A stretch of DNA of 64,000 nt, from contig NZ_CP092099.1 of NCBI RefSeq assembly GCF_022259695.1, positions 1,720,471-1,784,470 on the forward strand, in the 5' to 3' direction. Origin of the DNA: Flaviramulus sp. BrNp1-15 (GTDB lineage Bacteria > Bacteroidota > Bacteroidia > Flavobacteriales > Flavobacteriaceae). Shown piece after piece: positions 17,556 through 62,960 of this stretch (the first letter of the stretch is position 1; each line of letters starts with the position of its first letter). Under the pieces are notes generated by a model that searched no databases, was not told the origin of the DNA, and saw only the letters and a program-made list of their open reading frames with translations. The position numbers were made by a program, and so were the translations under genes.

Positions 17556-18102
17556 GATTTGATGAATTTTTTAATTGTTTTACGTTATTTATTTGCTCTA
17601 GAGTGTTTTGTAATATGTTTATTCTATTTTGAAAATTTGAAATCATAGCGTAGATCACACGATTATCGTCGCCACTTTCAATTAAATCGGTTTTTAAAAC
17701 CTTGTAATTTTCTTCTAATTTTTTTATTTGTGCTAATGCATCATTTATTAAGCCTTGAACTTCTGGTGATTTTTCTTCGTTAAGCTTAATTAATTCTTCA
17801 TTTATAGTAAGTGTAAAAAAATCTTGAGTTTCTGCCATTTTTGGAGAAATGCTTGCCAGATCTCCTGAATTATCCTGTAGTTGCGAGCTTATTACTATTG
17901 TAACTAACAATAATATAGAGGCGGCTACACTAATTAAAGGTTTCCATAAACGACGCCATTGTTTAGGAGCTCCAACTAGTTGTAGCTCGCCATTATTGTT
18001 AAGTTTACTTAAAAAGCGCTGTTTATGATTTTCTTTAGGCTCTTCTAAATCAAAATCGTTTTCTAAATTTTTGAATAAATCTTCTAAAGTATTTTTGTTC
18101 AT
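17533..18102 (-). CDS. Probable anti-sigma factor, single-pass membrane protein
   Basis: 189 residues with one transmembrane helix at about 68-88 (PLISVAASILLLVTIVISSQ). The cytoplasmic N-terminus begins NKNTLEDLFKNLENDFDLEEP, and the outer part is a predicted coiled coil (LINDALAQIKKLEENYKVLK). No classical zinc anti-sigma motif is seen. The call rests on topology and on its place nine bases after an ECF sigma gene; a plain membrane protein is the alternative. It overlaps the following gene by 23 bases. Confidence 0.72.
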   Translation of the reverse strand: MNKNTLEDLFKNLENDFDLEEPKENHKQRFLSKLNNNGELQLVGAPKQWRRLWKPLISVAASILLLVTIVISSQLQDNSGDLASISPKMAETQDFFTLTINEELIKLNEEKSPEVQGLINDALAQIKKLEENYKVLKTDLIESGDDNRVIYAMISNFQNRINILQNTLEQINNVKQLKNSSNHETSTTI

Positions 18103-39708: not shown

Positions 39709-39759
39709 CAAAATTAAAGCAATTGTTAAATTAAGGTTAATATTATTTTGTCAATTGCT
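39709..39759 (-). promoter_or_regulatory. Putative susC promoter with spaced inverted repeat
   Basis: On the minus strand, TAATTTTG (39716-39709) fits TAnnTTTG. No TTG lies 20 bases upstream; instead AGCAATTG (39718-39725) and CAATTGCT (39752-39759) form an inverted repeat with 26 bases between arms, one arm adjoining the -7 box. A promoter lacking its -33 element with paired sites upstream fits activation, for example by the adjacent AraC protein. Inference only. Confidence 0.42.
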
Positions 39760-39865
39760 AATGAAATTTTTTCGATTAAATGACTCTTAGGGGGATAATA
39801 TTAAATGGAGTCCTTAAATAGCTGCTATTGAGGTAGGGAAAAGAAACAATTTTAATAAGAGAAAA

Positions 39866-40744
39866 CTATAGTATTCTTTTTATGCCAGAAAAGTCATTTT
39901 TGTATTGGCTAGGTGTGCATTTTTTTGATTTTTTAAAAACTCTATTAAAATTGGCTATATTGTTAAAACCACAGTTAAAAGCAATTTCAGAAATAGTGAT
40001 GTCTTTTTCTATTAACCGAATAGCTGCATGACCAATTCTTACATCATTAACATAGTCAACAAAAGTTTTTCCGGTTCTTTTTTTCATGAACCTATTAAAA
40101 GAAACTTGACTCATATTTACAAGGTCTGAAGCTTCTGCTAGAGTAATTTTTTTATCGTAATTTTCTTGAACGTACTCGTATATTTTCTTGATTTTGTCGC
40201 TATTCTCAAAACTATCTCTATTTATAGTGTAGCTGGAGAGAAGTCTTTGGTTTCTGGAGTTTGCAAGATCATGCAGTATAGAAACTAGTTCTAGAAAATA
40301 GTCCATACCATCTAGCTTTGAAACTTGAGCAAGACGTTCGTATAATTCAGAACTTATTTTTTTAGAAAATAAAATCCCATGTATAGATCGGTCAAACATA
40401 TCTTTAATAGGTTTCATTATCTTTCTAGAAAGCAATTCATTATTAAATAAATGTTCATCAAACTGGATAGTAATTTCTCTCATCTCTTGCCCTTTATTAT
40501 TGTTGTTCAACCAACCATGATGTAAGTTGGGACCAACCAAAACGAGTTCTATGTCATCTATCTCTTCAATACTGTCGCCAATGACTCTATTAACCCCTTT
40601 GCCATTATGGATAAAATTAAGCTCGTATTCTGGATGAAAATGAACTGGAAAGTCAAATTCTTCTTTAACTCTATCAAAAACCAAAAAGCTATCTTCAGGA
40701 GATAAAGGAGTTATTTCTCTATGTACTTTGTTTAATATACTCAT
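39866..40744 (-). CDS. AraC family regulator with cupin sensor domain (copy 1)
   Basis: 292 residues. The N-terminal cupin fold is marked by FPVHFHPEYELNFIHNGKGVNRVIGD, with His and Glu at positions that usually hold metal or sugar, and ends near residue 130. The C-terminal double helix-turn-helix has KITLAEASDLVNMSQVSFNRFMKKRTGKTFVDYVNDVRIGHA and ITISEIAFNCGFNNIANFNRVFKKSKKCTPSQYK. It sits between the two main operons (susC on one side, GH26 on the other), so it probably activates both in response to a mannan-derived sugar. Clear paralogue of the gene at 56357-57232. Confidence 0.9.
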   Translation of the reverse strand: MSILNKVHREITPLSPEDSFLVFDRVKEEFDFPVHFHPEYELNFIHNGKGVNRVIGDSIEEIDDIELVLVGPNLHHGWLNNNNKGQEMREITIQFDEHLFNNELLSRKIMKPIKDMFDRSIHGILFSKKISSELYERLAQVSKLDGMDYFLELVSILHDLANSRNQRLLSSYTINRDSFENSDKIKKIYEYVQENYDKKITLAEASDLVNMSQVSFNRFMKKRTGKTFVDYVNDVRIGHAAIRLIEKDITISEIAFNCGFNNIANFNRVFKKSKKCTPSQYKNDFSGIKRIL

Positions 40745-40770
40745 TTTTGTTGCAATTATAGTTTATAATA

Positions 40771-40788
40771 ATGATAAAATAATATCAT
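40771..40788. promoter_or_regulatory. Inverted repeat between araC copy 1 and GH26
   Basis: ATGATA, six bases, TATCAT. It lies 27 bases upstream of the araC start and about 108 bases upstream of GH26, where a shared operator could be. The region is extremely AT-rich, so chance palindromes are common. Confidence 0.28.
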
Positions 40789-50080: not shown

Positions 50081-52360
50081 TTATTTCAATTCAAAACCTG
50101 CTTCTAGAGTTGCTGTAGAACTTCCACCTACAAAAACCTTAAAATCACCAGGTTCAACTATGTAATCGCCTTGGTTATTGTAGAAACCTAATGTTTCATT
50201 GTTTAATGCGAAATTAATAGTCTTAGTTTCTCCCGCTTTTAACTCAACTAATTCAAAACCTTTTAATTCTCTAACAGGTCTTGTTACACTTCCTACAAGG
50301 TCTCTAATGTATAATTGTACAACTTCTTTTCCGTCAATATTGCTTGTGTTTGTTACATTAACAGAAACATTTACCTCGCTTCCAGTTTTAAATGATGTTC
50401 CATTAAGATTTAAGTTAGAATATTCAAAAGTTGAATAACTTAAACCGTAACCAAATGGGTATAATGGTGTTTTTTCAGAATCAATATAATGAGACCAAAA
50501 TACATTATTGTCTTTATCAGTAGGTCTTCCTGTATTTTTATAATTGTAATAAATAGGTACTTGACCAACATGTCTAGGAAACGTCATAGGTAGTTTTCCG
50601 CTAGGGTTATAATCTCCATATAGAACTTGTGCAACTGCGTTTCCAGTTTGAGTACCTAATTGCCACGCTTCTACAATAGCAGGAATATGTTCATCTGCCC
50701 AACTAACTGCTAAAGGACGTCCATTGTTTAATACCAAAACAATGTTTTTATTTACTTTGTAAACTGCTTCTAATAATTCTTGTTGTACTCCTGGTAATTG
50801 CAAGTTCGTTCTGCTTCTTGCTTCGCCACTCTGGAAGCCGTGTTCTCCTAAAACCATAACAACAACATCTGATTGTTTTGCAACTTTTATAGCTTCAGCA
50901 AAATCACTTTTATCAGTTTCATTAATAATAACTTCATGAACAAACCCTGCATTTCCAACAAATAAATCAGCTCCCTTAGCATAAGTTAATTTGTTTCCTT
51001 TATAAGCTTGCATTCCTTCTAAAACAGATACAGCAGTATTATCGTCAGAACCTATTCTCCAGCTTCCAAGAGGACTATTTTTATCGTTAGCTAGGGCTCC
51101 AATTAATGCTATTTTTTGACCTTCTTTTTTTAGAGGAAGCAAATTGTTGTCATTTTTTAGTAGCACTATTGATTTCTTTGCCATATCTAAAACAGCATCA
51201 AGATGTTTTGTACTTCCTATAACTGTTTTTTCGCGTTCTTCATCACAATATTTGTAAGGATCATCAAATAAGCCCAATTCGAATTTAACTCTTAAAATTC
51301 TTCTTGCAGCGTCATCAATTAATGATTCTTCAACCTCTCCAGACTTTACTAAATCTACTAAATGATTAATATAGGCGTTAGACTCCATATCTAAATCTGA
51401 ACCAGCAATTGCAGCTTTTTTAGCAGCATCTTTTAAATCTTTTGCGTGTCCCCAGTCAACCATTTCACGAATTGAGGCCCAATCTGATACAACAAAACCA
51501 TCAAAATTCCATTTACCTTTTAAAATATCGCGTTGTAAAAACTTATCTCCAGTTGCTGGCACACCATTTAAATCGTTAAACGAATTCATAAATGTTTTTA
51601 CGCCAGCATCTTTAGCAGCTTTAAAAGGAGGTAATACGTAATTATATAGGGTGGAAGTTCCAATATCTACAGTATTATATTCTTTACCTGCTTCGGTAAA
51701 CCCATAAGCAGCAAAATGTTTTGCGCAAGCAGCAATGGTATTTACAGCAGATAAATCTTCACCTTGAAAACCAGTAACACGTGCAACAGCTATTTTACTA
51801 CCTAAAAAAGGATCTTCGCCAGCACCTTCCATAACACGTCCCCAACGTGCATCTCTAGAGATGTCTACCATTGGTGCAAATGTCCAGTTTACACCAACCG
51901 CAGAAGCTTCTGCTGCTGCTACACTTGCCGATTTTTTTATAGCTTCTAAATCCCAACTTGCTGATTCTGCTAGTGGAATAGGGGCCAAAGTTTTGTAACC
52001 ATGTATAACATCTGAACCAATAATTAAAGGAATGCCTAAACGCGATTCTTCAACTATAATTTTTTGGAGCGCTCTTACATTTTCAACGCCTCTAACATTT
52101 AACATAGAACCCACATAGCCTTTTCTTAAATCTTCATATTTCTTTTCTGCATTTCCACCTTCTGGAGCAGGACCAGTGACATTCCAAAATCCATTGTATT
52201 GGTTCATTTGACCCACTTTTTCTTCAATAGTCATTATTGATAATAGTGAATCAATTTTTTGTTCAATGTTTTGGTTTTTAGTGTTTGAAGTTTGACTTTG
52301 TATGTTTTGACAGCTTATAAAAGCAAATAATAAAGTCCCTAATAATGCTATTTTTTTCAT
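50081..52360 (-). CDS. GH3 beta-glucosidase (BglX-like), lipoprotein
   Basis: 759 residues. Lipobox FISC (Cys17), no acidic export signal, so probably periplasmic. GH3 N-terminal domain with LIIGSDVIHGYKTLAPIPLA, NWTFAPMVDISRDARWGRVMEGAGEDPFLG, AKHFAAYGFTEAGKEYN and nucleophile Asp293 in FDGFVVSDWASI; GH3 C-terminal domain with VMVLGEHGFQSGEARSR; and the FnIII-like end (NVSVNVTNTSNIDGKEVVQLY). It is expected to remove terminal beta-glucose from glucomannan or cello-oligosaccharides. Third from last in a minus-strand operon after GH1. Confidence 0.94.
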   Translation of the reverse strand: MKKIALLGTLLFAFISCQNIQSQTSNTKNQNIEQKIDSLLSIMTIEEKVGQMNQYNGFWNVTGPAPEGGNAEKKYEDLRKGYVGSMLNVRGVENVRALQKIIVEESRLGIPLIIGSDVIHGYKTLAPIPLAESASWDLEAIKKSASVAAAEASAVGVNWTFAPMVDISRDARWGRVMEGAGEDPFLGSKIAVARVTGFQGEDLSAVNTIAACAKHFAAYGFTEAGKEYNTVDIGTSTLYNYVLPPFKAAKDAGVKTFMNSFNDLNGVPATGDKFLQRDILKGKWNFDGFVVSDWASIREMVDWGHAKDLKDAAKKAAIAGSDLDMESNAYINHLVDLVKSGEVEESLIDDAARRILRVKFELGLFDDPYKYCDEEREKTVIGSTKHLDAVLDMAKKSIVLLKNDNNLLPLKKEGQKIALIGALANDKNSPLGSWRIGSDDNTAVSVLEGMQAYKGNKLTYAKGADLFVGNAGFVHEVIINETDKSDFAEAIKVAKQSDVVVMVLGEHGFQSGEARSRTNLQLPGVQQELLEAVYKVNKNIVLVLNNGRPLAVSWADEHIPAIVEAWQLGTQTGNAVAQVLYGDYNPSGKLPMTFPRHVGQVPIYYNYKNTGRPTDKDNNVFWSHYIDSEKTPLYPFGYGLSYSTFEYSNLNLNGTSFKTGSEVNVSVNVTNTSNIDGKEVVQLYIRDLVGSVTRPVRELKGFELVELKAGETKTINFALNNETLGFYNNQGDYIVEPGDFKVFVGGSSTATLEAGFELK

Positions 52361-52393
52361 ATGTAATATTTATTTTTTTAACTGTTTCTAGTA

Positions 52394-53770
52394 TTACCAG
52401 CCATTATTCTTAATAATTTGTTTAAACCACAAAGCAGAAGCTTTTGGGATTCTTTTAAGTGTTTTGTAATCTATATAATTTATACCAAAACGAACAGAAT
52501 AACCTGAAGCCCATTCAAAATTATCAAAAAGACTCCATGCAAAATAACCTTTTAAATTGATACCATCTGCAATAGCTTTGTTACAAGCTTCCAAATACTG
52601 TTTATAATAATCTAATCTCTCAAGGTCATTTACTTCTCCGTTTTCAACTTTGTCATCGCAAGCAAAACCATTTTCGGTAATAATTATGTCTGGATTATTA
52701 TATCGTTTACTAATCCAATCTAACAATTTATAACATCCCCATGGCACAACTGCCCAGTTAAATGATGTAAGTGGCCATGATTCATCTTGAGATAAAATAA
52801 CGTCTTGATCTTCAGAAATACCTCCGTTACCGTAAACGCTTCCAGTAATTCCAGAATGATCATCTTCAGCAGCATACATTGTTGTGTAATGGTTTAAACC
52901 AAAAAAATCTGAAGAATCTTTAATTAGTTCTTTTTCTTCTTCAGTAAATTTAGGTAATCTTTCTCCAAGCCTATCTTTCATTACTTGTGGATAATCTCCA
53001 AAATATACAGGATCTGCAAACCATCCAATAAAAAATAATAAAGCGCGTTCTGCAGCATCGATATCACATAGTTTATCAGTTAAAGGTTCTCTCCAATCGC
53101 AATTATTGGTAATTCCAATAGTTCCTTTTTGATTGTTAAAGTTTGTTCTGTACTGTTTTACAGCTTTGGCATGTGCAAGAATTAAATGATGAGCAGCTAA
53201 ATAGGGTTCTGAATTTGAGGTTCTCCCTGGGGCAAAAACACCTTGCCCATAACCTAAAATGGCTGCTACCCATGGCTCGTTAAGTGTAATCCAGTTTTTA
53301 ACGCGATCGCCAAATCTTTCAAAACAAACTTTAGCAAATGCTTCAAAATAATCTGCTATATCAGGATTTAACCAACCATCATTTTCCATTTCCAGTGCCA
53401 AAGGTAAATCCCAATGATATAATGTTACCCAAGGCGTGATGTCGTTTTTCAATAATTCATCTATAAGATTTGAATAAAAAAGAATGCCTTCTTCATTTAT
53501 TTTACCTTTACCCTCAGGCATAATTCTGGACCAAGAAATTGAAAATCGGTAAGCCTTAAAACCTTGCGATTTCAACAAAGCTACATCCTCTTTATAGCGG
53601 TTGTAATGGTCTATGGCAACATTGCCGTTTTCATTATTCTTTATCCGATTTGGTATGGTGCAATAACTATCCCATATTGAAGGTCCTTTGCCATCTGCAT
53701 TATGCCCTCCTTCAATTTGATAAGCTGATGTTGCTGTACCCCATATAAAATCATTTGAAAATTTAATCAT
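52394..53770 (-). CDS. GH1 beta-glucosidase, cytoplasmic
   Basis: 458 residues, no signal peptide. GH1 signatures are complete: FIWGTATSAYQIEGGHNADGKGPSIWD at the N-terminus, YHWDLP, acid/base Glu165 in TLNEPW, NHYTTMY, and nucleophile Glu366 in IIITENGFA. It would hydrolyse imported beta-gluco-oligosaccharides, or possibly beta-mannosides, as some GH1 enzymes do; no GH2 beta-mannosidase is present in the locus. Spacing is 29 bases after the esterase and 33 before GH3. Confidence 0.94.
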   Translation of the reverse strand: MIKFSNDFIWGTATSAYQIEGGHNADGKGPSIWDSYCTIPNRIKNNENGNVAIDHYNRYKEDVALLKSQGFKAYRFSISWSRIMPEGKGKINEEGILFYSNLIDELLKNDITPWVTLYHWDLPLALEMENDGWLNPDIADYFEAFAKVCFERFGDRVKNWITLNEPWVAAILGYGQGVFAPGRTSNSEPYLAAHHLILAHAKAVKQYRTNFNNQKGTIGITNNCDWREPLTDKLCDIDAAERALLFFIGWFADPVYFGDYPQVMKDRLGERLPKFTEEEKELIKDSSDFFGLNHYTTMYAAEDDHSGITGSVYGNGGISEDQDVILSQDESWPLTSFNWAVVPWGCYKLLDWISKRYNNPDIIITENGFACDDKVENGEVNDLERLDYYKQYLEACNKAIADGINLKGYFAWSLFDNFEWASGYSVRFGINYIDYKTLKRIPKASALWFKQIIKNNGW

Positions 53771-53799
53771 TCTGTTTTGGTTAGTCTAAATTAGTTAAA

Positions 53800-55170
53800 T
53801 TAATGTTCGGTTGTAAATGTTGATGCAGGTAAATTAGCTTCATTAAAAACATTAGATTGAGCCGTGTTTTTCCATGCAAATCGAACATATTTAGGTTGTT
53901 TTACTTCTTTTGATGAAAGTATTATGTAATCATCTTTCAATTTTATTTTTGCATTGTAGAATATTTTATCATCTCCAGAAATTTCAAAAAGAGAATAATT
54001 GTCTTTCATGTATAATCCCTCTGAATTATCAAAAAACACTATAGCTTTTCTTTTTTCAAATGAAACATTTTTGAAAAGAGGACCACTTATAGTTCCCTCA
54101 AAGTTTTTGTAATGATTTTTTAAAGCTAGATTAGCAAGTCTTATTCCAACCGTTTTTTTGTCTTTGGGATGAATATCATCTGTTGTAGAAACATCATCAA
54201 TAACAACCATTCCTGTGTTTTCTGAAATATCTAACACTTTACGTTGTGCATTTCTAATTTCAGCAGCACCAAAATGATCTTCACCATATTCAAACGGCGC
54301 AATTTGTACGTAATAAAATGGGAAATTATGATTCCAAAGCAAACGCCATGAACTGATTAAAGCAGAAAGCGTTTTTTCATAATGTTTTGCGCCAACATTT
54401 GCTTCACCTTGATACCACAAAGCTCCTGTTACATTGTAACCCAACAAGGGGTTTATCATAGCATTGAAGGCTCTGGCGGGTTCTGTTGGTCCCCATTCCA
54501 CAGGTTTTAATTTGTTTGCGGCTACATTAAGTATAGAATCTTTTGTAATAATATGTTCTGGCATCCAAATTTCTGCAGGTGTTCCTCCCCAAGCAGAAAC
54601 TATTAATCCCACAGGAATATTTTCATATTTTTCTTGTAATCGCTTTGCAAAAAAGTAAGCTACAGCACTAGAATTCTTCATGGTTTCTGGTGTTGAAACT
54701 AGCCAATTTGCATTCACGTTAATTTGAGGTGATTTTGCAGAAACTTTAGGCACATTAAAAAAACGAATGTTAGGATTGTTTGCCTTTTCAATTTCATTCA
54801 TATTTTTTATACCCCAACTTGCAGACATTTCCATGTTGGATTGCCCTGAACATAACCAAACTTCACCTATAAGAATATCTTTTAAAATAATTTCATTGTA
54901 TCCTTTTATCGTAATTGTATAGGGTCCACCATAACTAGGAGTTTTAATAGTTAATTCCCAGTTTGCTTGATTATTAGTTTTTGTTTTATAAACTTCATTT
55001 GACCAAGATGGTTGAATTGTGATGTCTTCATTTGGATTTGCCCATCCCCAAATTTTCACATCATCATTTTGTTGTAATACCATGTGGTCTGCAAATACAG
55101 AAGGTAAAACAACATTTGCAAATGATGAATTTACAAGAAGCAGGAATAATAATGTGTATAAGAATTTCAT
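53800..55170 (-). CDS. Sialate O-acetylesterase-like SGNH esterase
   Basis: 456 residues with signal peptide KFLYTLLFLLLVNSSFA. SASA-family (PF03629-like) SGNH hydrolase: oxyanion and Ser block in EVWLCSGQSNMEMSASWG, VSAWGGTPAEIW, GALWYQGEANVGAKHYEKTLSALI, and the catalytic Asp-x-His in TTDDIHPKDKKTVG. An N-terminal Ig-like part precedes it. In plant-glycan loci these enzymes remove acetyl groups, here probably from acetylated glucomannan. It overlaps the CE2 gene by one base (TAATG), so the two esterases are translationally coupled. Confidence 0.9.
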   Translation of the reverse strand: MKFLYTLLFLLLVNSSFANVVLPSVFADHMVLQQNDDVKIWGWANPNEDITIQPSWSNEVYKTKTNNQANWELTIKTPSYGGPYTITIKGYNEIILKDILIGEVWLCSGQSNMEMSASWGIKNMNEIEKANNPNIRFFNVPKVSAKSPQINVNANWLVSTPETMKNSSAVAYFFAKRLQEKYENIPVGLIVSAWGGTPAEIWMPEHIITKDSILNVAANKLKPVEWGPTEPARAFNAMINPLLGYNVTGALWYQGEANVGAKHYEKTLSALISSWRLLWNHNFPFYYVQIAPFEYGEDHFGAAEIRNAQRKVLDISENTGMVVIDDVSTTDDIHPKDKKTVGIRLANLALKNHYKNFEGTISGPLFKNVSFEKRKAIVFFDNSEGLYMKDNYSLFEISGDDKIFYNAKIKLKDDYIILSSKEVKQPKYVRFAWKNTAQSNVFNEANLPASTFTTEH

Positions 55171-56255
55171 TATTTATTGCTTATTAATTTGTTGAAAAAA
55201 GGAGTTAGCTGTTCTGCTAATAATTTATGGTCCTCTATACTAGGGTGATAATTACAACCGTTTACATAAAGTTTTTCAAACTGAAAAAGCACAATATTTT
55301 TATCATTGAAATGATTTTGTACAGCTTTTAAACAAGACACCAAAGTATCGTTTCTTTGCTCGGAAACCATTGGGCTATTTAACAATGCAACTTGAACATT
55401 AGGATGTTTTTTATAAAGCATTTCAACAAACTTGATGTAGTTATTGGTATATTTTTTTGAATTAAAAGGAAGACGTTCTTTTACGCCATCACCATCAGAC
55501 ATATCATTGGTGCCCAAACAAATACTAATTATATCTGGATTAAAATTAGATTTGTATGGTTTAGATTCATCTTTGTTTAAGTACAAATTATTATAAACTT
55601 GAGGCATGATGGGTTCTTCAACATTCTCATCGTTCCAATTTCTATACATTCCCATCCCCGAAACAGAACTTAAAAGGTAATTAGTATTTAAAGTTCTTGC
55701 CAATAATGGACCGTAAGCTAAGTATGCATTGTGTTGGTCTAGATACTCACCTTCATTGCAATCAATATCGCTATTATCTGCTAATGCTCCGCAAGTAATA
55801 GAATCTCCTATAAATTCAATAGAAATTTTGGATTTTTCGTTTAGCGGAACTAATTCTTTTGCTTCAATTTTATGAACAATAATATTTCCGCTTGCGGCTT
55901 CAGTAGCTTTATGAATTCCTATTTTATTAAATTCATTTTCGGGCAATTGTAATGTTATTTTATTAATTGTGTCGCCTTTAATTTGATAACGTCCTTTGTA
56001 TTCATCATTAATAGTTAAAACAACATAATTACGAGGTGTAAATTCAGACTGAATAAATAATGAAATAGAATCTCCTTTAGTATTAAATTCTAACGATGCA
56101 GCAGAACCAATTAATGCAGTTGTACTGTCGGTTAATTTTTCTATTCTTCCTGTTTGTTTTATTAGTTTATCTGTAGCGTTATAAATTTTCAAAGAGTTTT
56201 CTTTACATGAAACGATAAATAAAAAGCTTATAATTGATATGTAAAATTTAAACAT
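55170..56255 (-). CDS. CE2-type acetylesterase, lipoprotein
   Basis: 361 residues. Lipobox FIVSC (Cys17), then KENSLKIYN. CE2 layout: an N-terminal jelly roll (about 25-140, e.g. GSAASLEFNTKGDSISLFIQS) followed by an SGNH domain with the nucleophile Ser in ISIEFIGDSITCGALA, SSVSGMGMYRNW, ISICLGTNDMSDGDGV and catalytic His in NYHPSIEDHKLLAEQLTPFF. Known CE2 enzymes deacetylate mannan/glucomannan at C6 and related positions. First gene of the five-gene operon that runs to 49161. Confidence 0.88.
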   Translation of the reverse strand: MFKFYISIISFLFIVSCKENSLKIYNATDKLIKQTGRIEKLTDSTTALIGSAASLEFNTKGDSISLFIQSEFTPRNYVVLTINDEYKGRYQIKGDTINKITLQLPENEFNKIGIHKATEAASGNIIVHKIEAKELVPLNEKSKISIEFIGDSITCGALADNSDIDCNEGEYLDQHNAYLAYGPLLARTLNTNYLLSSVSGMGMYRNWNDENVEEPIMPQVYNNLYLNKDESKPYKSNFNPDIISICLGTNDMSDGDGVKERLPFNSKKYTNNYIKFVEMLYKKHPNVQVALLNSPMVSEQRNDTLVSCLKAVQNHFNDKNIVLFQFEKLYVNGCNYHPSIEDHKLLAEQLTPFFNKLISNK

Positions 56256-56356: not shown

Positions 56357-57232
56357 TTATTCAAATCGTTGTATTGACTTGAACTCGGTTTTAAATTTAC
56401 TAGGTGTTATGTTTTTAGATTTTTTGAAGAAACGGTTGAAGTTTGCAATACTATTAAATCCACATCTGTAAGCTGTTTCTGCAACAGATAAATCGGTTTC
56501 AACTAAAAATTTTGTTGCATAACCTATTCTTTTATCATTTGCAAATTCAATAAATGTTTTACCTGTTCTCTTTTTAATGAACCGGTTGAATGAGCTTTGG
56601 CTCATATTTACTAAACTAGAAATTTCTTTTAAAGATATTTTTCTAGCATAATTTTCATTTAAGAAATCATGTACTTTTTTAATTTTATCACTTCCTTCAA
56701 ATTGATTTTCTCTTTCATCAATATTTTGAGAAAGTGTACGCTGATGTTTTGAATTTGCAAGTTCTTCAAGAAGTTTTAAAAGTTTAATAAAATCATCTAC
56801 ACCGTTTTCTGATGAGAGTGCTTTTATTTTTGACATTAAATTTATGGCTGTTTTTTCATCAAAAAGCACTCCTTGTTTAGACCTTATAAATAAATCTTTT
56901 ATTGGTTTAAAATTTTTCAAAGAAAGTAAATCATCACTAAATAAATTTTCATGAAATTGAATAGTTATTTCATAAATTTTATTTCTTTTACAATGGTGTG
57001 TTTCCCAACCATGTTCTAAATTAGAGCCTACTAAAACCAATTCTACATCTCCAATTTCTTCCATGGAATTTCCAACCACACGTCTTACACCTCTGCCATT
57101 TAGTATAAAATTTAATTCATACTCTGGATGAAAATGTATTGGGAAATCAAACTTTTTTTTCACACGATTAATTATCAAGAAAACATCATCTGGTTTTAAT
57201 AGTGTTATTTCTCGATTAATCTTTTCAACCAT
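56357..57232 (-). CDS. AraC family regulator with cupin sensor domain (copy 2)
   Basis: 291 residues, collinear with the AraC at 39866-40744 from end to end. Cupin part: FPIHFHPEYELNFILNGRGVRRVVGN; HTH part: KISLKEISSLVNMSQSSFNRFIKKRTGKTFIEFANDKRIGYA and LSVAETAYRCGFNSIANFNRFFKKSKNITPSKFK. The core of the recognition helices is shared, while the sensor domain differs more. It follows a GH5 gene by 21 bases and lies just before the CE2 operon, which it may activate. Confidence 0.9.
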   Translation of the reverse strand: MVEKINREITLLKPDDVFLIINRVKKKFDFPIHFHPEYELNFILNGRGVRRVVGNSMEEIGDVELVLVGSNLEHGWETHHCKRNKIYEITIQFHENLFSDDLLSLKNFKPIKDLFIRSKQGVLFDEKTAINLMSKIKALSSENGVDDFIKLLKLLEELANSKHQRTLSQNIDERENQFEGSDKIKKVHDFLNENYARKISLKEISSLVNMSQSSFNRFIKKRTGKTFIEFANDKRIGYATKFLVETDLSVAETAYRCGFNSIANFNRFFKKSKNITPSKFKTEFKSIQRFE

Positions 57233-57253: not shown

Positions 57254-58264
57254 TTAATTGTAATTATAAGAACTTAATTTCTTTTTGAAATATTTACCAT
57301 GCCTTGATGGGGTATAATTCCAGTCTTCAAATAAACGTGGAGCCCATTGTGGGTCAAAAACCCAAACCACATAGGATATTTCTTTGTCATCACAATAATT
57401 TGTTATTGCATCACCATATGATTCATCACTAATAACGGGTATGTGTGCGCCTGGGTCTTCTGGTCCGCTAAATCCTATTTCAGTAAGAATTAAAGGGTAC
57501 TTTCCTTTTACATAACCCCAATCTTCAGTCCATTGGCTTTCCCAAGGTTTTTCTCTTTTTTGAGGATACGGGTGACTTACATAAGCAATTCCTTCAGCAT
57601 TTATTGGGTTTTCTTTTACAGGTGTTAAATCGTAAGCCCAATTAAAACCAGCTATTAGAGGAATGCCTTCACCACCATTAGCTCGAACAATAGTTATTAA
57701 TTCTTCGTTAATTTTTTTCCAATCTTCCCAAGTTGCGGTTCCTAAAGTATTATTAAACGTTGTCGGTTCATTAAATAATTCGTAAAAAGCTACAGTTGTG
57801 TTTTTTCCGTACTTAACAGCAATGGTTCTCCAAAAATCATAAGTTTGTTTAAGAGTCGTATCGTACATATCGTGCTGATACATTTCGGTTTGTAAATTAC
57901 CAATGCTATGCCAGTCTATAATAACATACAAATTAAGTTCTGTAGCCCATTTTATACCATCATCTAAAAGTTTTAGATAATTTTCTTTTCCTCTTTTTAC
58001 CCAAGCTGTAGGATGTACTGGGAAACGAACAATATTAGCGCCCCAGTTTTTTATTTCTTGAAAATATGATTTATTCCAATGATTTTGACTTTCTAGCTTA
58101 TCAGGATCACTTGTGTTTAAACCTCTAAAAACAATTGTTTCGTTACTGTTTGTAACAAAGTCATTTTCATTTACTGTTATTCTATCTAATTTGTTTTGTG
58201 AAAAGCCTGTAGCTAAAAATAAACTACATATTACTACTGCTAATTTTCTTTTTAAATTTCTCAT
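57254..58264 (-). CDS. GH5 endo-glycanase (cellulase-like), secreted
   Basis: 336 residues from the Met at 58264, which fronts signal KRKLAVVICSLFLATGFSQ; the frame is open to 58309. GH5 fold with VFRGLNTSDPDKL, WGANIVRFPVHPTAW, NLYVIIDWHS, acid/base Glu166 in FYELFNEPT, SHPYP and nucleophile Glu262 in PLILTEIGFSG. It differs clearly from the GH5_7 mannanase of the plus operon and looks like an endoglucanase-type branch; glucomannan or a beta-glucan are likely substrates. The subfamily was not determined. Co-transcribed with araC copy 2. Confidence 0.9.
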   Translation of the reverse strand: MRNLKRKLAVVICSLFLATGFSQNKLDRITVNENDFVTNSNETIVFRGLNTSDPDKLESQNHWNKSYFQEIKNWGANIVRFPVHPTAWVKRGKENYLKLLDDGIKWATELNLYVIIDWHSIGNLQTEMYQHDMYDTTLKQTYDFWRTIAVKYGKNTTVAFYELFNEPTTFNNTLGTATWEDWKKINEELITIVRANGGEGIPLIAGFNWAYDLTPVKENPINAEGIAYVSHPYPQKREKPWESQWTEDWGYVKGKYPLILTEIGFSGPEDPGAHIPVISDESYGDAITNYCDDKEISYVVWVFDPQWAPRLFEDWNYTPSRHGKYFKKKLSSYNYN

Positions 58265-58350
58265 AATTTTATAAAACTTGATGTGATGTTTAAATACCAT
58301 TTGAAGCAAGTTATTTTATAAAAGACTCATGTGAAAATAAAACTAAATAA

Positions 58351-58383
58351 TTGATTAAATTTTAAAGGTAAATGACAATATTG
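58351..58383. promoter_or_regulatory. 33-bp bipartite element, copy A
   Basis: TTGATTAAAT, eight bases (TTTAAAGG), TAAATGACAATATTG. It is repeated at 59647-59679 with the same 8-base spacing. It lies 87 bases upstream of the GH5 start. CAATATTG is a self-complementary 8-mer. Read on the minus strand, TACCTTTA (a near -7 box) spans the spacer. Confidence 0.7.
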
Positions 58384-58456
58384 TATAGTGTTTTAAGACT
58401 TCTTTAACCTTTAATATGAAAACCTAGTTTTAGCTAATATTTAAAAATAATAAAAT

Positions 58457-59479
58457 TTAGCTTGAGTTTCTAATTATAAGTTCGGTATCTACAATTATTT
58501 GTTGGGGTTTTGTTATTATTCCTTTGAATTTACAATCTATTTCATGAAATAGGATTTGAGCAGATTTTTCACCTATTTCATATCCATTTTGTTCGATTGA
58601 AGATAAAGTAGGGGTAACTACTGAAGACATAAACCAATTACTAAAACCTATAAGTGCAATATCTTCAGGTACATTTATATTAACAGAATTTAAGTAATTT
58701 AAAGCACCAATTGCTAAAAGATCATTCATTGTAAATAAAGCATCAACATTATTACCATGGTCTTGTATTAACTTTTTAGCATTTTTGAATCCGTCATCAA
58801 AATCAGAATCATTATCACATAAATAAACTAATGATGAGTCAAAATTTATATCATTATCTAGTAATGCTTTTTTGTAACCTAAAAAGCGATCAATAGAATT
58901 TTGTGGGTTTAATCCACCTCTAAAATGAGCGATTCGTTTATGTCCTTTTTTTATAAGATAAGTAACTGCTTCATAAGCTGATTTTCTATCATCTATTTTA
59001 ACTTTAGAGCAATTAATAGTTTTTGCTATTTTATCAAAAAGGACTAAAGGTATTCCAAGTGCTTGGATTTTTTTTAAATGATCTAAATTACTTGTTTTGT
59101 TTGATAATGAAATTAAAATACCATCTACACCTTTATTTAAAAGTAAGTCAATTTGTTTTTTTTCAAGTTCGTAATCTTCTTTTGACTGCATTAAAATGAC
59201 TACATAGTTATTTTTTTCGGCTTCTTTTAAAATACTATCTATGACCTTAGAGAAAAAATAATGTACGGTTTCTGGCACTATAACCCCAATAGTTTTTGAT
59301 TTTTGCATTCTAAGGCTTACAGCAAACGAATTAGGAACGTAATTTAGTTTTTCAGCTAAGGTTTTTACACGATCTCTGGTTTTTTTACTTACATCTGGAT
59401 ACGCTTTAAGTGCTTTTGAAACAGTAGTAACCGATAACTCTAATTGATTTGCTATTTCTTTTAGTGTTATTGTTTTCAT
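58457..59479 (-). CDS. LacI family transcriptional regulator
   Basis: 340 residues from the Met at 59479 (frame open six codons further). N-terminal HTH: ITLKEIANQLELSVTTVSKALKAYPDVSKKTRDRVKTLAEKLNYVPNSFA, with the hinge helix; then a periplasmic-binding-protein-like sugar domain (SKTIGVIVPETVHYFFSKVID, DGILISLSNKT, RIAHFRGGLNPQNSIDRFLGYKKAL, DALFTMNDLLAIGALNYL, PEDIALIGFSNW). It probably senses a sugar from mannan breakdown and controls part of the locus. A duplicated 33-bp element lies upstream of both this gene and GH5, a candidate for autoregulation. Confidence 0.93.
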   Translation of the reverse strand: MKTITLKEIANQLELSVTTVSKALKAYPDVSKKTRDRVKTLAEKLNYVPNSFAVSLRMQKSKTIGVIVPETVHYFFSKVIDSILKEAEKNNYVVILMQSKEDYELEKKQIDLLLNKGVDGILISLSNKTSNLDHLKKIQALGIPLVLFDKIAKTINCSKVKIDDRKSAYEAVTYLIKKGHKRIAHFRGGLNPQNSIDRFLGYKKALLDNDINFDSSLVYLCDNDSDFDDGFKNAKKLIQDHGNNVDALFTMNDLLAIGALNYLNSVNINVPEDIALIGFSNWFMSSVVTPTLSSIEQNGYEIGEKSAQILFHEIDCKFKGIITKPQQIIVDTELIIRNSS

Positions 59480-59646
59480 CTCTTTTGATTGATTCATTGA
59501 GAAAATATATGTTTTAAAAAGACTAGATACTTCTTGTATTGGTTATAATGAACAATATTTTTCATGACTATATAATAAATATCAATAAAGTATCATTTAT
59601 AGCAAGTTATTTCATTATTAATTAAAATAAAAGTAAAATTCGAAAT

Positions 59647-59679
59647 TTGATTAAATAGTGAGTGTAAATGACAATATTG
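59647..59679. promoter_or_regulatory. 33-bp bipartite element, copy B
   Basis: TTGATTAAAT, eight bases (AGTGAGTG), TAAATGACAATATTG, identical to copy A at 58351-58383 in both conserved blocks and in spacing. It is 168 bases upstream of the lacI start. Confidence 0.7.
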
Positions 59680-59711
59680 AATATTTATAATAACTTTATT
59701 AAGTTATTTTA

Positions 59712-60128
59712 TTAATGTGGCAACTTATCTTTAAGTACTCCATATAAATACGTGCCAATCACCGAAAAGAATATTACTATTAGTATGGGGGAAAAACCAG
59801 CCCCTAAAAGTGTAAACATGGGACCTGGACAAGCACCAGCAAGCGCCCAGCCTAGGCCAAAAATTATTCCCCCAATTAGATAATTTGTTACACCTTTTGT
59901 TTTAGGAATAAAATTAATGTCTTCCTTATAAAACGATTTTATTCTAAACCGTTTAATAGATTGCACTATAATAATACCTAATGTTAGGGCAGAACCTATA
60001 ATACCATACATATGAAATGACTGAAATTTAAACATTTCGTATATACGAAACCATGAAGCAGCTTCAGATTTAAACATTGTAATACCAAATAAAACACCTA
60101 TCAGTAAATAAAAAAATATTCTAGCCAT
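59712..60128 (-). CDS. YeeE/YedE-type membrane protein, half-size (DUF6691-like)
   Basis: 138 residues with about four hydrophobic helices. The signature GWALAGACPGPMFTLLGAG holds the Cys found in YeeE/TsuA thiosulfate carriers. Its partner at 60132 carries the other half; in full-length YeeE the two are fused. It starts three bases after the partner gene, so the pair forms one unit that probably imports thiosulfate or another sulfur species. Confidence 0.88.
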   Translation of the reverse strand: MARIFFYLLIGVLFGITMFKSEAASWFRIYEMFKFQSFHMYGIIGSALTLGIIIVQSIKRFRIKSFYKEDINFIPKTKGVTNYLIGGIIFGLGWALAGACPGPMFTLLGAGFSPILIVIFFSVIGTYLYGVLKDKLPH

Positions 60129-60131
60129 ATC

Positions 60132-60689
60132 TTAAAAAATTAAAGGAAAAATAAAATTAACCATAACTAAACCTCCAATAAAAAATCCAATTACAGCAAT
60201 TAAAGAAGGAAGTTGTAAATTACTTAAACCAGAAATGGCATGACCAGAAGTACAGCCACTAGCATATCTGGTACCAAAACCAATTAGTAAACCACTAACA
60301 GATAAAATTAAAATGCTTTTTATATTCCCAAATACCGAGTTGTCAAAAAGTTCTGTTGGTAAATATTCTTTACCAGCGCCTTCAAAACCAAGTAAATTTA
60401 ATTCACTAACAGTTTCTGGATTAATATGAACAACCAAATCGTTAGACAAGAAATGCGATCCAATAAATCCTCCAATTATAGCTCCTGTGGCTACAACTAA
60501 ATTCCATTTTTGAGATTTCCAATCAAATTTAAAAAATTCAGTTTTTTTTCCTGCACCACAAATAGCACACAATGTTCTAAGGTTTGATGACATGCCAAAG
60601 CTTTTACCAAACATGATTAGTAAAAACATTATAAAAGCTATCATAGGACCAGAAATATACCATGGCCAAGGTTCAAATATCCAATTCAT
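60132..60689 (-). CDS. YeeE/YedE family sulfur transporter, half-size
   Basis: 185 residues with about five hydrophobic helices. The signature GFGTRYASGCTSGHAISGLSNLQLPS contains the Cys of the YeeE family that contacts sulfur substrates. An additional Cys pair lies in LRTLCAICGAGKKTEF. It is followed after two bases by the second half-protein. The MBL/rhodanese gene lies 129 bases upstream on the same strand, so the three act in one pathway: uptake and oxidation or trafficking of sulfane sulfur. Confidence 0.88.
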   Translation of the reverse strand: MNWIFEPWPWYISGPMIAFIMFLLIMFGKSFGMSSNLRTLCAICGAGKKTEFFKFDWKSQKWNLVVATGAIIGGFIGSHFLSNDLVVHINPETVSELNLLGFEGAGKEYLPTELFDNSVFGNIKSILILSVSGLLIGFGTRYASGCTSGHAISGLSNLQLPSLIAVIGFFIGGLVMVNFIFPLIF

Positions 60690-60818
60690 TTTTTTTGTTT
60701 AAGCTACAAAAAAAAGGATAATTATGAATTTTAGCTAACTTATATTCAAATAAAGTAAACTATGTGTTATAAAATGGATAAAGGTTAAGGAGTATTATTT
60801 TGGATTTACCTTCAAGAA

Positions 60819-62228
60819 TCATAAAGTAGTAGGACAAACATAATCTGAAACTTTAACTCCAGATTCTTTAATAGCTTTAAACCCTCCTTTAACATCAATT
60901 AAGTTGTGAATACCTCTACTTTTTAAGATAGAAGCGGCAATCATACTTCTGTAACCTCCAGCACAATAAACATAAAAGGTTTCTGTATTTGGAAACTCAG
61001 ATAAATGATTGTTAATGTAATCTAAAGGAGTATGTTTTGCATTTAATACATGTTCAGATAAAAATTCCCCTTCTTTTCTAACATCAAAAACTGGAGTTTC
61101 ATCATGTTCTTTAGCTTCTTTAAATGTAGTAGCAGTAATTGAACTTACGGCATCATATTCTTTAGCTGCTTTTTTCCAAGCTTCAAATCCACCTTTTAAA
61201 TAGCCTAAGGTATGGTCAAAACCAACTCGAGATAATCGTGTAATAGTTTCTTTTTCTCTGCCTTCTGGAGCTACTAATAAAATAGGTTGTTTTACATCGG
61301 CAATTAAAGCACCAACCCAAGGGGCAAAACTACCATCTAATCCAATAAAAATAGATCGAGGAATATGACCTTTTGCAAAATCATTTTGGTTACGAACGTC
61401 TAGAACAACCGCTTCAGTTTCATTAGCTGCTGTTTCAAAAGCATCTGGTGTTAAAGCTTGTGCGCTACGTTTTAAGACCTCATCAAAGTCATCATAACCT
61501 TCTTTATTCATTTTTACATTTAACGGAAAGTATTGAGGAGGTGGCAATAAGCCATCTGTAACTTCTTCAATAAAATCTTCTTTTGTCATATCTGCTCTAA
61601 GCGCATAATTTGTAGCTTTCTGGTTACCTAAAGTATCTACAGTTTCTTTACTTAGATTTTTACCACATGCGGAACCTGCTCCATGAGCTGGATACACAAT
61701 AACATCGTCTGCTAAGGGCATTATTTTAGTACGTAAACTATCGTATAAATAGTCTGCTAAATCTTTTTCAGTAATTTCTCCAGTTTTTTGAGCTAAATCT
61801 GGTCGACCTACATCTCCTAAAAATAATGTGTCTCCACTAAAAATAGCATGGTCTTTCCCATTTTCATCCTTTAAAAGAAATACTGAACTTTCCATGGTAT
61901 GTCCAGGAGTATGTAATACAGTAATTGAAACATTACCTAATTTAAACTCTTGTCCGTCTTTTGCAATGATAGCATTAAAAGTAGTTTCAGCATTTGGCCC
62001 AAAAATAATAGGAGCACCAGTTTCTTTTGAAAGCGTTAAGTGTCCGCTCACAAAATCTGCATGAAAATGTGTTTCAAAAATGTATTTTATCTTAGCATCG
62101 TCTAGTTTTGCTCTATTTATATATGGTTTTACTTCGCGTAAAGGGTCTATAATTGCTACTTCACCATTACTTTCAATGTAATAAGCACCTTGCGCTAAAC
62201 ATCCAGTATATATTTGTTCAATTTTCAT
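60819..62228 (-). CDS. MBL-fold / double rhodanese fusion (persulfide dioxygenase-like)
   Basis: 469 residues, cytoplasmic. The metallo-beta-lactamase-like domain (1-230) has ETHFHADFVSGH, LHTPGHTMESSV, FSGDTLFLGDVGRPDL and YPAHGAGSACG, matching ETHE1/Blh-type glutathione-persulfide dioxygenases. Two rhodanese domains follow: the first (about 265-360) reads LLVAPEGREKE where the active loop should be and has no Cys, so it is probably inactive; the second (about 370-465) has the intact loop YCAGGYRS. It likely oxidises persulfides and moves sulfane sulfur. A palindrome upstream suggests Crp-type control. Confidence 0.9.
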   Translation of the reverse strand: MKIEQIYTGCLAQGAYYIESNGEVAIIDPLREVKPYINRAKLDDAKIKYIFETHFHADFVSGHLTLSKETGAPIIFGPNAETTFNAIIAKDGQEFKLGNVSITVLHTPGHTMESSVFLLKDENGKDHAIFSGDTLFLGDVGRPDLAQKTGEITEKDLADYLYDSLRTKIMPLADDVIVYPAHGAGSACGKNLSKETVDTLGNQKATNYALRADMTKEDFIEEVTDGLLPPPQYFPLNVKMNKEGYDDFDEVLKRSAQALTPDAFETAANETEAVVLDVRNQNDFAKGHIPRSIFIGLDGSFAPWVGALIADVKQPILLVAPEGREKETITRLSRVGFDHTLGYLKGGFEAWKKAAKEYDAVSSITATTFKEAKEHDETPVFDVRKEGEFLSEHVLNAKHTPLDYINNHLSEFPNTETFYVYCAGGYRSMIAASILKSRGIHNLIDVKGGFKAIKESGVKVSDYVCPTTL

Positions 62229-62247
62229 AGTATTTAATTTGCGGCAT

Positions 62248-62309
62248 TAAAGGTAAATGTTACATAAAATTTATACACTAACATAGGTAACGTTTAATAA
62301 TATTTAAAC
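62248..62309 (-). promoter_or_regulatory. Putative Crp/Fnr-controlled promoter of the MBL/rhodanese gene
   Basis: GTTTAA, six bases, TTAAAC (62292-62309) is an 18-bp palindrome of the size bound by Crp/Fnr dimers. On the minus strand a near -7 box, TACCTTTA (62255-62248), lies 19 bases before the ATG, with no TTG 20 bases upstream of it. The palindrome centre is about 58 bases from the expected transcript start, close to a class I activator position. A second pair, ATGTTA and TAACAT, flanks the same region. Confidence 0.42.
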
Positions 62310-62327
62310 ATTATTTAGTACCTTTTA

Positions 62328-62960
62328 TTATATGTTTTTAATTGTTATATAATTTCTATGTAACTCTATTTTACCTAAGTTCTCTAATTTTTTTAATAAT
62401 CTTGAAATAACAACCCGAGATGTATGTAATTCGTATGCTATTTCTTGGTGTGTGATATTTACTTTATGGTCTTTTGAGATTCTTGCTTTTTCATTTAGAT
62501 ATTTTAAAAGACGTTCATCCATTTTTAAAAATGCGATACTATCAATGGTTTCAAGCATTTCATTTAAACGATTGTGGTAACTTTCAAAAACAAAATTTCT
62601 CCAGCTTTTATATTTAGCAGACCATTCTTCCATTTTCTGAATAGGAATCATAATAAGTCTTGCATCAGTTTCTGCAATGGCTCTTATTTCACTTTTAGTA
62701 TGGGCTAAACAACACGTTAATGTCATGGCACAGGTATCTCCTTTTTCCAGAAAGTAGAGCAGTAGTTCATCGCCGTCTGTATCTTCGCGTAAAATCTTAA
62801 TTGCACCAGAAATTAATAAAGGCATTGCTTTTACATACTCTCCAATATCAATAAGTTTTGAACCTTCGGGTACATCTTTAAACGTTCCTACTTGGTTTAT
62901 TTCATTTAAAAGCGCATCTTCAAATAAATGGCCGTAATTATCTTTTAATTCTTGTATCAT
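62328..62960 (-). CDS. Crp/Fnr family transcriptional regulator
   Basis: 210 residues. Cyclic-nucleotide-binding-like fold (about 15-125, SGAIKILREDTDGDELLLYFLEKGD) and a C-terminal winged helix (HKVNITHQEIAYELHTSRVVISRLLKKLENLGKIELHRNYI). In place of the Crp phosphate cassette it has GDTCAMTLTCCLAHTKSEIRA, with Cys77, Cys83 and Cys84, which could bind a cluster or react with sulfur. It precedes the sulfur genes in the same direction and probably controls them. A perfect -7 box ends four bases before its ATG. Confidence 0.9.
   Translation of the reverse strand: MIQELKDNYGHLFEDALLNEINQVGTFKDVPEGSKLIDIGEYVKAMPLLISGAIKILREDTDGDELLLYFLEKGDTCAMTLTCCLAHTKSEIRAIAETDARLIMIPIQKMEEWSAKYKSWRNFVFESYHNRLNEMLETIDSIAFLKMDERLLKYLNEKARISKDHKVNITHQEIAYELHTSRVVISRLLKKLENLGKIELHRNYITIKNI

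Follow-up and report, generated by a model that had tools for sequence, protein, structure and literature searches.

A bipartite promoter element before GH5 and lacI genes of a flavobacterial mannan locus, a candidate site for an AraC-type activator

In a mannan locus of Flaviramulus sp. BrNp1-15, the same 33-bp bipartite element stands before two transcription units, one opening with a GH5 gene followed by the gene for an AraC-type regulator (AraC1), and the other beginning with a gene for a LacI-family regulator. Which protein recognizes the element, and what does its presence before lacI mean? The original prediction named the LacI protein as the binder. The comparisons reported here, made on the 64-kb stretch of DNA under analysis (hereafter the window) and on genomes of the same family, make it likely that an AraC-type activator binds the element instead, the probable binder being the AraC clade of the locus (AraC1 and/or its paralog AraC2), with lacI recruited as a target. 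The features of the locus are collected in Table 1.

Table 1. Coordinates of the features discussed, in window positions.
Feature	Position	Strand	Remarks
Element copy 1, GH5 promoter	58351..58383	-	+ strand half-sites ATTGATTAAATTTT (58350-58363) and AATGACAATATTGT (58371-58384), 21 bp apart
Element copy 2, lacI promoter	59647..59679	-	+ strand half-sites TTTGATTAAATAGT (59646-59659) and AATGACAATATTGA (59667-59680), 21 bp apart
TAACTTGC, predicted -7 box of GH5 promoter	58306..58313	-	37 nt from element; predicted start ~58301; box type after PMC9723704
TAACTTGC, predicted -7 box of lacI promoter	59602..59609	-	37 nt from element; predicted start ~59597; box type after PMC9723704
lacI, LacI-family regulator	58457..59479	-	PF00356, PF00532; proposed target of the module, not binder; start set at the ATG of 59479 (59497 in the ORF list)
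GH5 enzyme, first gene downstream of copy 1	57254..58264	-	PF00150
AraC1, AraC-type regulator, proposed binder	56357..57232	-	PF12833; 21 bp behind GH5
Remainder of presumed operon: GDSL/CE2-like esterase, sialic-acid-type acetylesterase, GH1, GH3	50081..56255	-	
AraC2, AraC1 paralog (56%)	39866..40744	-	Between susC and GH26
susC promoter, same 21-bp pair ATCGAAAAAATT / ATTGACAAAATA	39744..39776	-	Half-sites forward relative to transcription
AATGATAAAATAATATC box	40770..40786	+	Between AraC2 and GH26

The element and the promoter module around it

The element, TTGATTAAAT-N8-TAAATGACAATATTG, was found in two copies exactly where it had been described, before both lacI and the GH5-araC unit, with 25/25 block bases identical between the copies and 8-base spacers differing at 5/8 positions. 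Since the genes lie on the minus strand, it reads CAATATTGTCATTTA-N8-ATTTAATCAA in gene direction. With up to three mismatches allowed, the two copies were the sole matches in the window (0 in 100 dinucleotide shuffles), and the genome-wide search suggested in the original prediction returned the same two and no others in 3,580,797 bases (control 0); a wide scatter of the element through the genome was rejected on this basis. The single block CAATATTGTCATTTA, searched alone at up to two mismatches, gave 54 matches against 49 in the control.

The similarity of the two copies exceeds 33 bp. After a constant gap they also have in common AAATAACTTGCT..AAATG.TA.TT, and beyond ~95 bp they agree little (21/60 positions upstream, 15/48 downstream). 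Thus, the conserved unit is a ~95-bp promoter module, of which the original prediction had caught the first 33 bp. Both copies lie 37 nt upstream of TAACTTGC, and the distance from the element to TAACTTG is 37 nt in 6/6 modules, namely these two and the four from relatives described below; five of the six were found without using the gap, while the profile that detected the sixth (in genome G419) includes it. The sequence downstream of the gap resembles the SM5 box of Flavobacterium psychrophilum, TAnnTTGY, located at -12 to -5 (PMC9723704). This pattern is fully matched in 5/6 modules, the one in G156 having TAACTTGG with G at the last place, and the start sites deduced from it are predictions. 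Placed by the SM5 box, the element would span -82 to -50 from the start, and the ATG codons of GH5 and lacI would be 37 nt and 118 nt downstream of it, respectively. The likeness to the SM5 promoters lies in the sequence of the box; the SM5 genes of that report are LPS, peptide and gliding genes, unlike those behind the modules here, for which the starts are predicted (PMC9723704).

Among 397 genomes of the family, 12 (the source genome included) carry the pattern at up to three mismatches, against three control hits. The 11 matches outside the source genome comprise four upstream of GH5 or GH3 genes, six within ORFs (G400, G357, G341, G351, G367 and G088) and one in an intergenic region before an unrelated gene (G180); the last seven were set aside. 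In G072 and G156 the module precedes GH5, and in G282 it precedes GH3; in G095 the element is reversed before GH3 and lacks a box at the 37-nt spacing. A search with R1, a sequence profile built from five modules, added one strong match (1e-5) in G419, before a gene for a mannanase-like protein with 25% identity over 231 aa to the GH5_7-like protein of the window and no Pfam match at 1e-3. The G419 locus includes GH26, GH130, epimerase, transporter and AraC genes, as judged from their sequences. Of the R1 matches past G419, the 25 examined as loci (L229-L253) had no match to the proteins of the mannan locus. The fixed blocks, the free spacer and a geometry conserved before sugar-degradation genes of other genera support the original view that the element resembles the site of a bound protein.

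LacI as a candidate binder

On the LacI reading, which goes back to the original prediction, the protein would act through the element to repress its own gene and to control GH5-araC. The position of lacI between the two copies and the self-complementary CAATATTG within the element favour this reading. We consider this very improbable for several reasons. We collected LacI orthologs at 55-76% identity (best 80 of 509 loci, a few of them with little upstream DNA), and the element, at more than 20/25 matches, was present in 0/80 of these loci; the best match among these best 80 of 509 was 20/25, inside the lacI coding sequence of L101. A GH5 or AraC1 neighbour was likewise found in none of the 80 (best 80 of 509). 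A different palindrome, CGAAAACGTTTTCG, occurs at 13/14 or better in 66/80 of the loci (best 80 of 509), compared with 0/80 for a control palindrome; members of the LacI clade probably use it as their operator. Many of the CGAAAACGTTTTCG sites in these loci (L063-L142, best 80 of 509) adjoin susC, and L064 has a GH65 gene directly upstream. The window contains a single match to TCGAAAACGTTTTCGA at up to three mismatches (position 18050), which is about the chance expectation.

The genomes that carry the element point in the same direction. The best match to the window LacI is 49% in G072, 59% in G282 (on another contig), 42% in G095 and 40% in G419, with none at E<=1e-60 in G156. We took the G072 match as a paralog because the source genome also has a 49% paralog; by the searches run, three of the four relatives that carry the whole module have no ortholog of the window LacI. 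The LacI gene had been described as the only one, which is true of the window, but the genome has six matches to the LacI query. As for CAATATTG, it is present in both window copies but lost in 4/4 relatives with the full module (G072, G156, G282 and G419). At ~50-82 nt ahead of the predicted start, the element would also be unusually placed for a repressor.

LacI autoregulation through the element was consequently rejected, given its absence at the ortholog loci (best 80 of 509), its presence in genomes for which the searches gave no ortholog, the other palindrome at the ortholog loci and the loss of CAATATTG. The original prediction had staked its case on orthologous genes in relatives, and there the element is absent before lacI (best 80 of 509 loci) but occurs in the same form before GH5 in 2/14 relatives, the other 12/14 having GH5 orthologs without this form. 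The two-level switch originally proposed for mannan use may nevertheless exist, albeit in a form in which AraC is the upper level and lacI one of its targets.

AraC-type half-sites and the linked regulators

On the strand opposite to transcription, the element reads as a direct repeat of the half-site TGAYWAWAT at a distance of 21 bp, or two helical turns, which is the arrangement of AraC-type regulators. When spacings of 10-60 bp were compared over seven promoters, the best pair scored 13.59 at 21 bp, the other spacings having a mean of 3.35 (sd 1.58) and a next best of 7.62; the maximum at 21 bp in 60 block shuffles was 6.74. Promoter by promoter, the 21-bp spacing ranks first in five and second in two of the seven. 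The half-site of the element recurs in further promoters tied to this regulator clade: boxes of the TTGAYAAAATAATA type occur in 6/6 susC promoters and in 12/13 regions separating AraC2 from its divergent neighbour, a count covering 13 of 14 such regions (that of G063 was left out).

For ranking within the window, we used half-site models made from 16 susC and araC/GH26 promoter boxes, all from other genomes and none from the window. Two of 20 boxes (minus strand) had been dropped before any modelling, including that of the spacings above and of the GH5 promoters below, and for the ranking the two boxes of the window itself were dropped as well. Scored by their weaker half among ~128,000 window positions, the two copies rank 1st and 2nd with the 10- and 12-base models and 1st and 5th with the 14-base model. 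Their summed scores place them 2nd and 3rd (10 and 12 bases) or 3rd and 5th (14 bases), the susC promoter being 1st each time. Taken singly, half-sites discriminate poorly: with its better half, copy 1 ranks only 22nd in the window. The AraC half-site was first spotted by eye through its resemblance to the element, so the choice of training boxes was not blind, but the boxes do lie at conserved places. Half-site pairs with one mismatch occur at five extra places in the genome and at five in the control, so that no wider regulon was found.

Half-sites also appear before GH5 genes that lack the full element. The GH5 orthologs of four other genomes have a near-perfect forward half-site, TTTGAYAAAATAATA, in their promoters, and five GH5 orthologs directly follow GH27 and do not require a separate promoter. 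In G291 (L179), the GH5 gene is preceded by a weak half-site (11.79) that was not counted; the other seven site-less GH5 promoters score 3.7 to 8.0. Upstream of GH5 in G284 (L173), a TTTGACAAAATAATA half-site is followed 39 bp on by TAACTTGC, with the AraC half-site in the opposite orientation.

The AraC clade (E<=1e-80) is present in 65/397 genomes overall and in 6/6 genomes with the element, in each case within 21 kb of it; the probability of finding the clade by chance in 5/5 other element genomes is ~1e-4. All four outside matches upstream of GH5 or GH3 belong to genomes with the clade, and the seven matches set aside belong to genomes without it. The recognition helices are near-identical across 10 members of the clade. 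In G156, where the esterases-GH1-GH3 operon order is also found behind the element, AraC1 is a remnant between GH5 and the esterase genes (L226, 2649-2957; 78-79% identical in its first 66 residues), and the full-length clade member is AraC2, 20.9 kb from the element. Thus, AraC2 or another protein must serve the element there.

This remnant leaves some room for a different AraC-type DNA-binding protein, such as a hybrid two-component system (HTCS) or the third clade member of the source genome (G000:C1:1619904-1620764). The AraC-type HTCS sites of Bacteroides share the direct-repeat form, with repeats averaging 21 bp (PMC3878776), and an HTCS belongs to the beta-mannan locus of Muricauda (PMC9860051). 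Nevertheless, no HTCS stands out by eye among the listed ORFs of the window, the AraC1/AraC2 clade is linked to the element in every element genome, and the susC and GH26 promoters of this very clade bear the same half-site; we therefore regard another AraC-type binder as unlikely. The third clade gene lies away from mannan genes (L286, 7878-9390, equivalent to G000:C1:1619878-1621390), with a half-site-like box at 8953 of L286 and a short IS-like ORF adjoining the gene.

Returning to the clade of the locus, we infer that AraC1, encoded directly behind GH5, and/or AraC2, whichever paralog is responsible, would bind the half-site pair upstream of the TAACTTGY -7 box. In response to a putative inducer, the bound protein would activate GH5-araC1-esterases-GH1-GH3 and, in the mannan locus, susC and GH26 as well. 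As araC1 is inside the activated unit, a positive loop would result, and the second copy of the promoter module would place lacI, whatever its role, under the same activator. The pairing of half-sites at 21 bp points to a dimer, whereas MarA binds as a monomer. The class I mar box of MarA promoters is otherwise comparable, being an AraC-family site that is backward and upstream of the core promoter (PMC2453137), as here.

Origin of the lacI copy and relation to known systems

The surroundings of the module offer clues to its history. In G072, hutI (78% identical) directly precedes the element, GH5 and AraC1, whereas in the source genome FNR, MBL-rhodanese, two YeeE-type genes and lacI lie between hutI and GH5. 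The window stretch 59712-62960, between hutI and lacI, holds two YeeE-type transporter genes and genes for an MBL-rhodanese protein and a Crp/Fnr regulator, none of which is in the G072 stretch L169. With lacI enclosed by two direct repeats and these genes intervening where hutI directly precedes the element and GH5 in G072, the copies could be viewed as the scar of a recombination or duplication around an inserted lacI, the lacI copy being functionless. This is exceedingly improbable in our judgement, because the blocks, the gap and the box were kept while the flanks and the spacer diverged, and the lacI copy retains 24/25 bases of the G072 box region. Over the module, the lacI copy matches the G072 GH5 promoter at 78/95 positions and the GH5 copy at 72/95; that the lacI copy is the closer one fits a duplicated promoter kept under selection.

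If lacI is genuinely a target of the mannan locus, one may speculate, though this is doubtful, that a mannan-responsive AraC captured the LacI of another sugar system, which would be made only with mannan and act in trans on the CGAAAACGTTTTCG operators of alpha-glucan or sucrose/fructan loci. Among the sites of the CGAAAACGTTTTCG type in the genome, one, at 3204430, precedes a GH97 gene, and two separate lacI-type genes from susC genes, an exact one at 3357358 and one with a single mismatch at 3221664. Against such a capture, the genome has seven places of the CGAAAACGTTTTCG type, which is not above the 10 of the control, and one of these sites, at 2312666, is within a coding ORF.

The element can be compared with several described systems. 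Like it, the HTCS sites of Bacteroides consist of two conserved direct-repeat half-sites with a free spacer before polysaccharide-utilisation genes (PMC3878776). The regulators linked here, however, are of the one-domain AraC type (HTH_18; no kinase or receiver by Pfam), and the half-sites of the element run backward relative to the gene. In the beta-mannan locus of Muricauda, the AraC regulator FG28_RS02325 lies among GH26, GH27, GH130 and GH5 genes and is co-induced with them (PMC9860051), a likeness of locus content; the excerpt of that report describes no binding site for FG28_RS02325, unlike the candidate site here. CgrA of Zobellia, an AraC activator of carrageenan genes in a marine flavobacterium, is required for a polysaccharide locus (PMC5698469) and is comparable in role; its substrate differs, and no site is given in the excerpt of that report.

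In the literature searched, no site is described for the AraC regulators of marine flavobacterial mannan loci. For these recurrent regulators, the element offers a concrete candidate site and a candidate regulon. The module has moved between GH5, GH3 and lacI genes, which may be a route by which polysaccharide loci are wired together. If the capture of LacI is also true, a single locus would set the order of sugar use.
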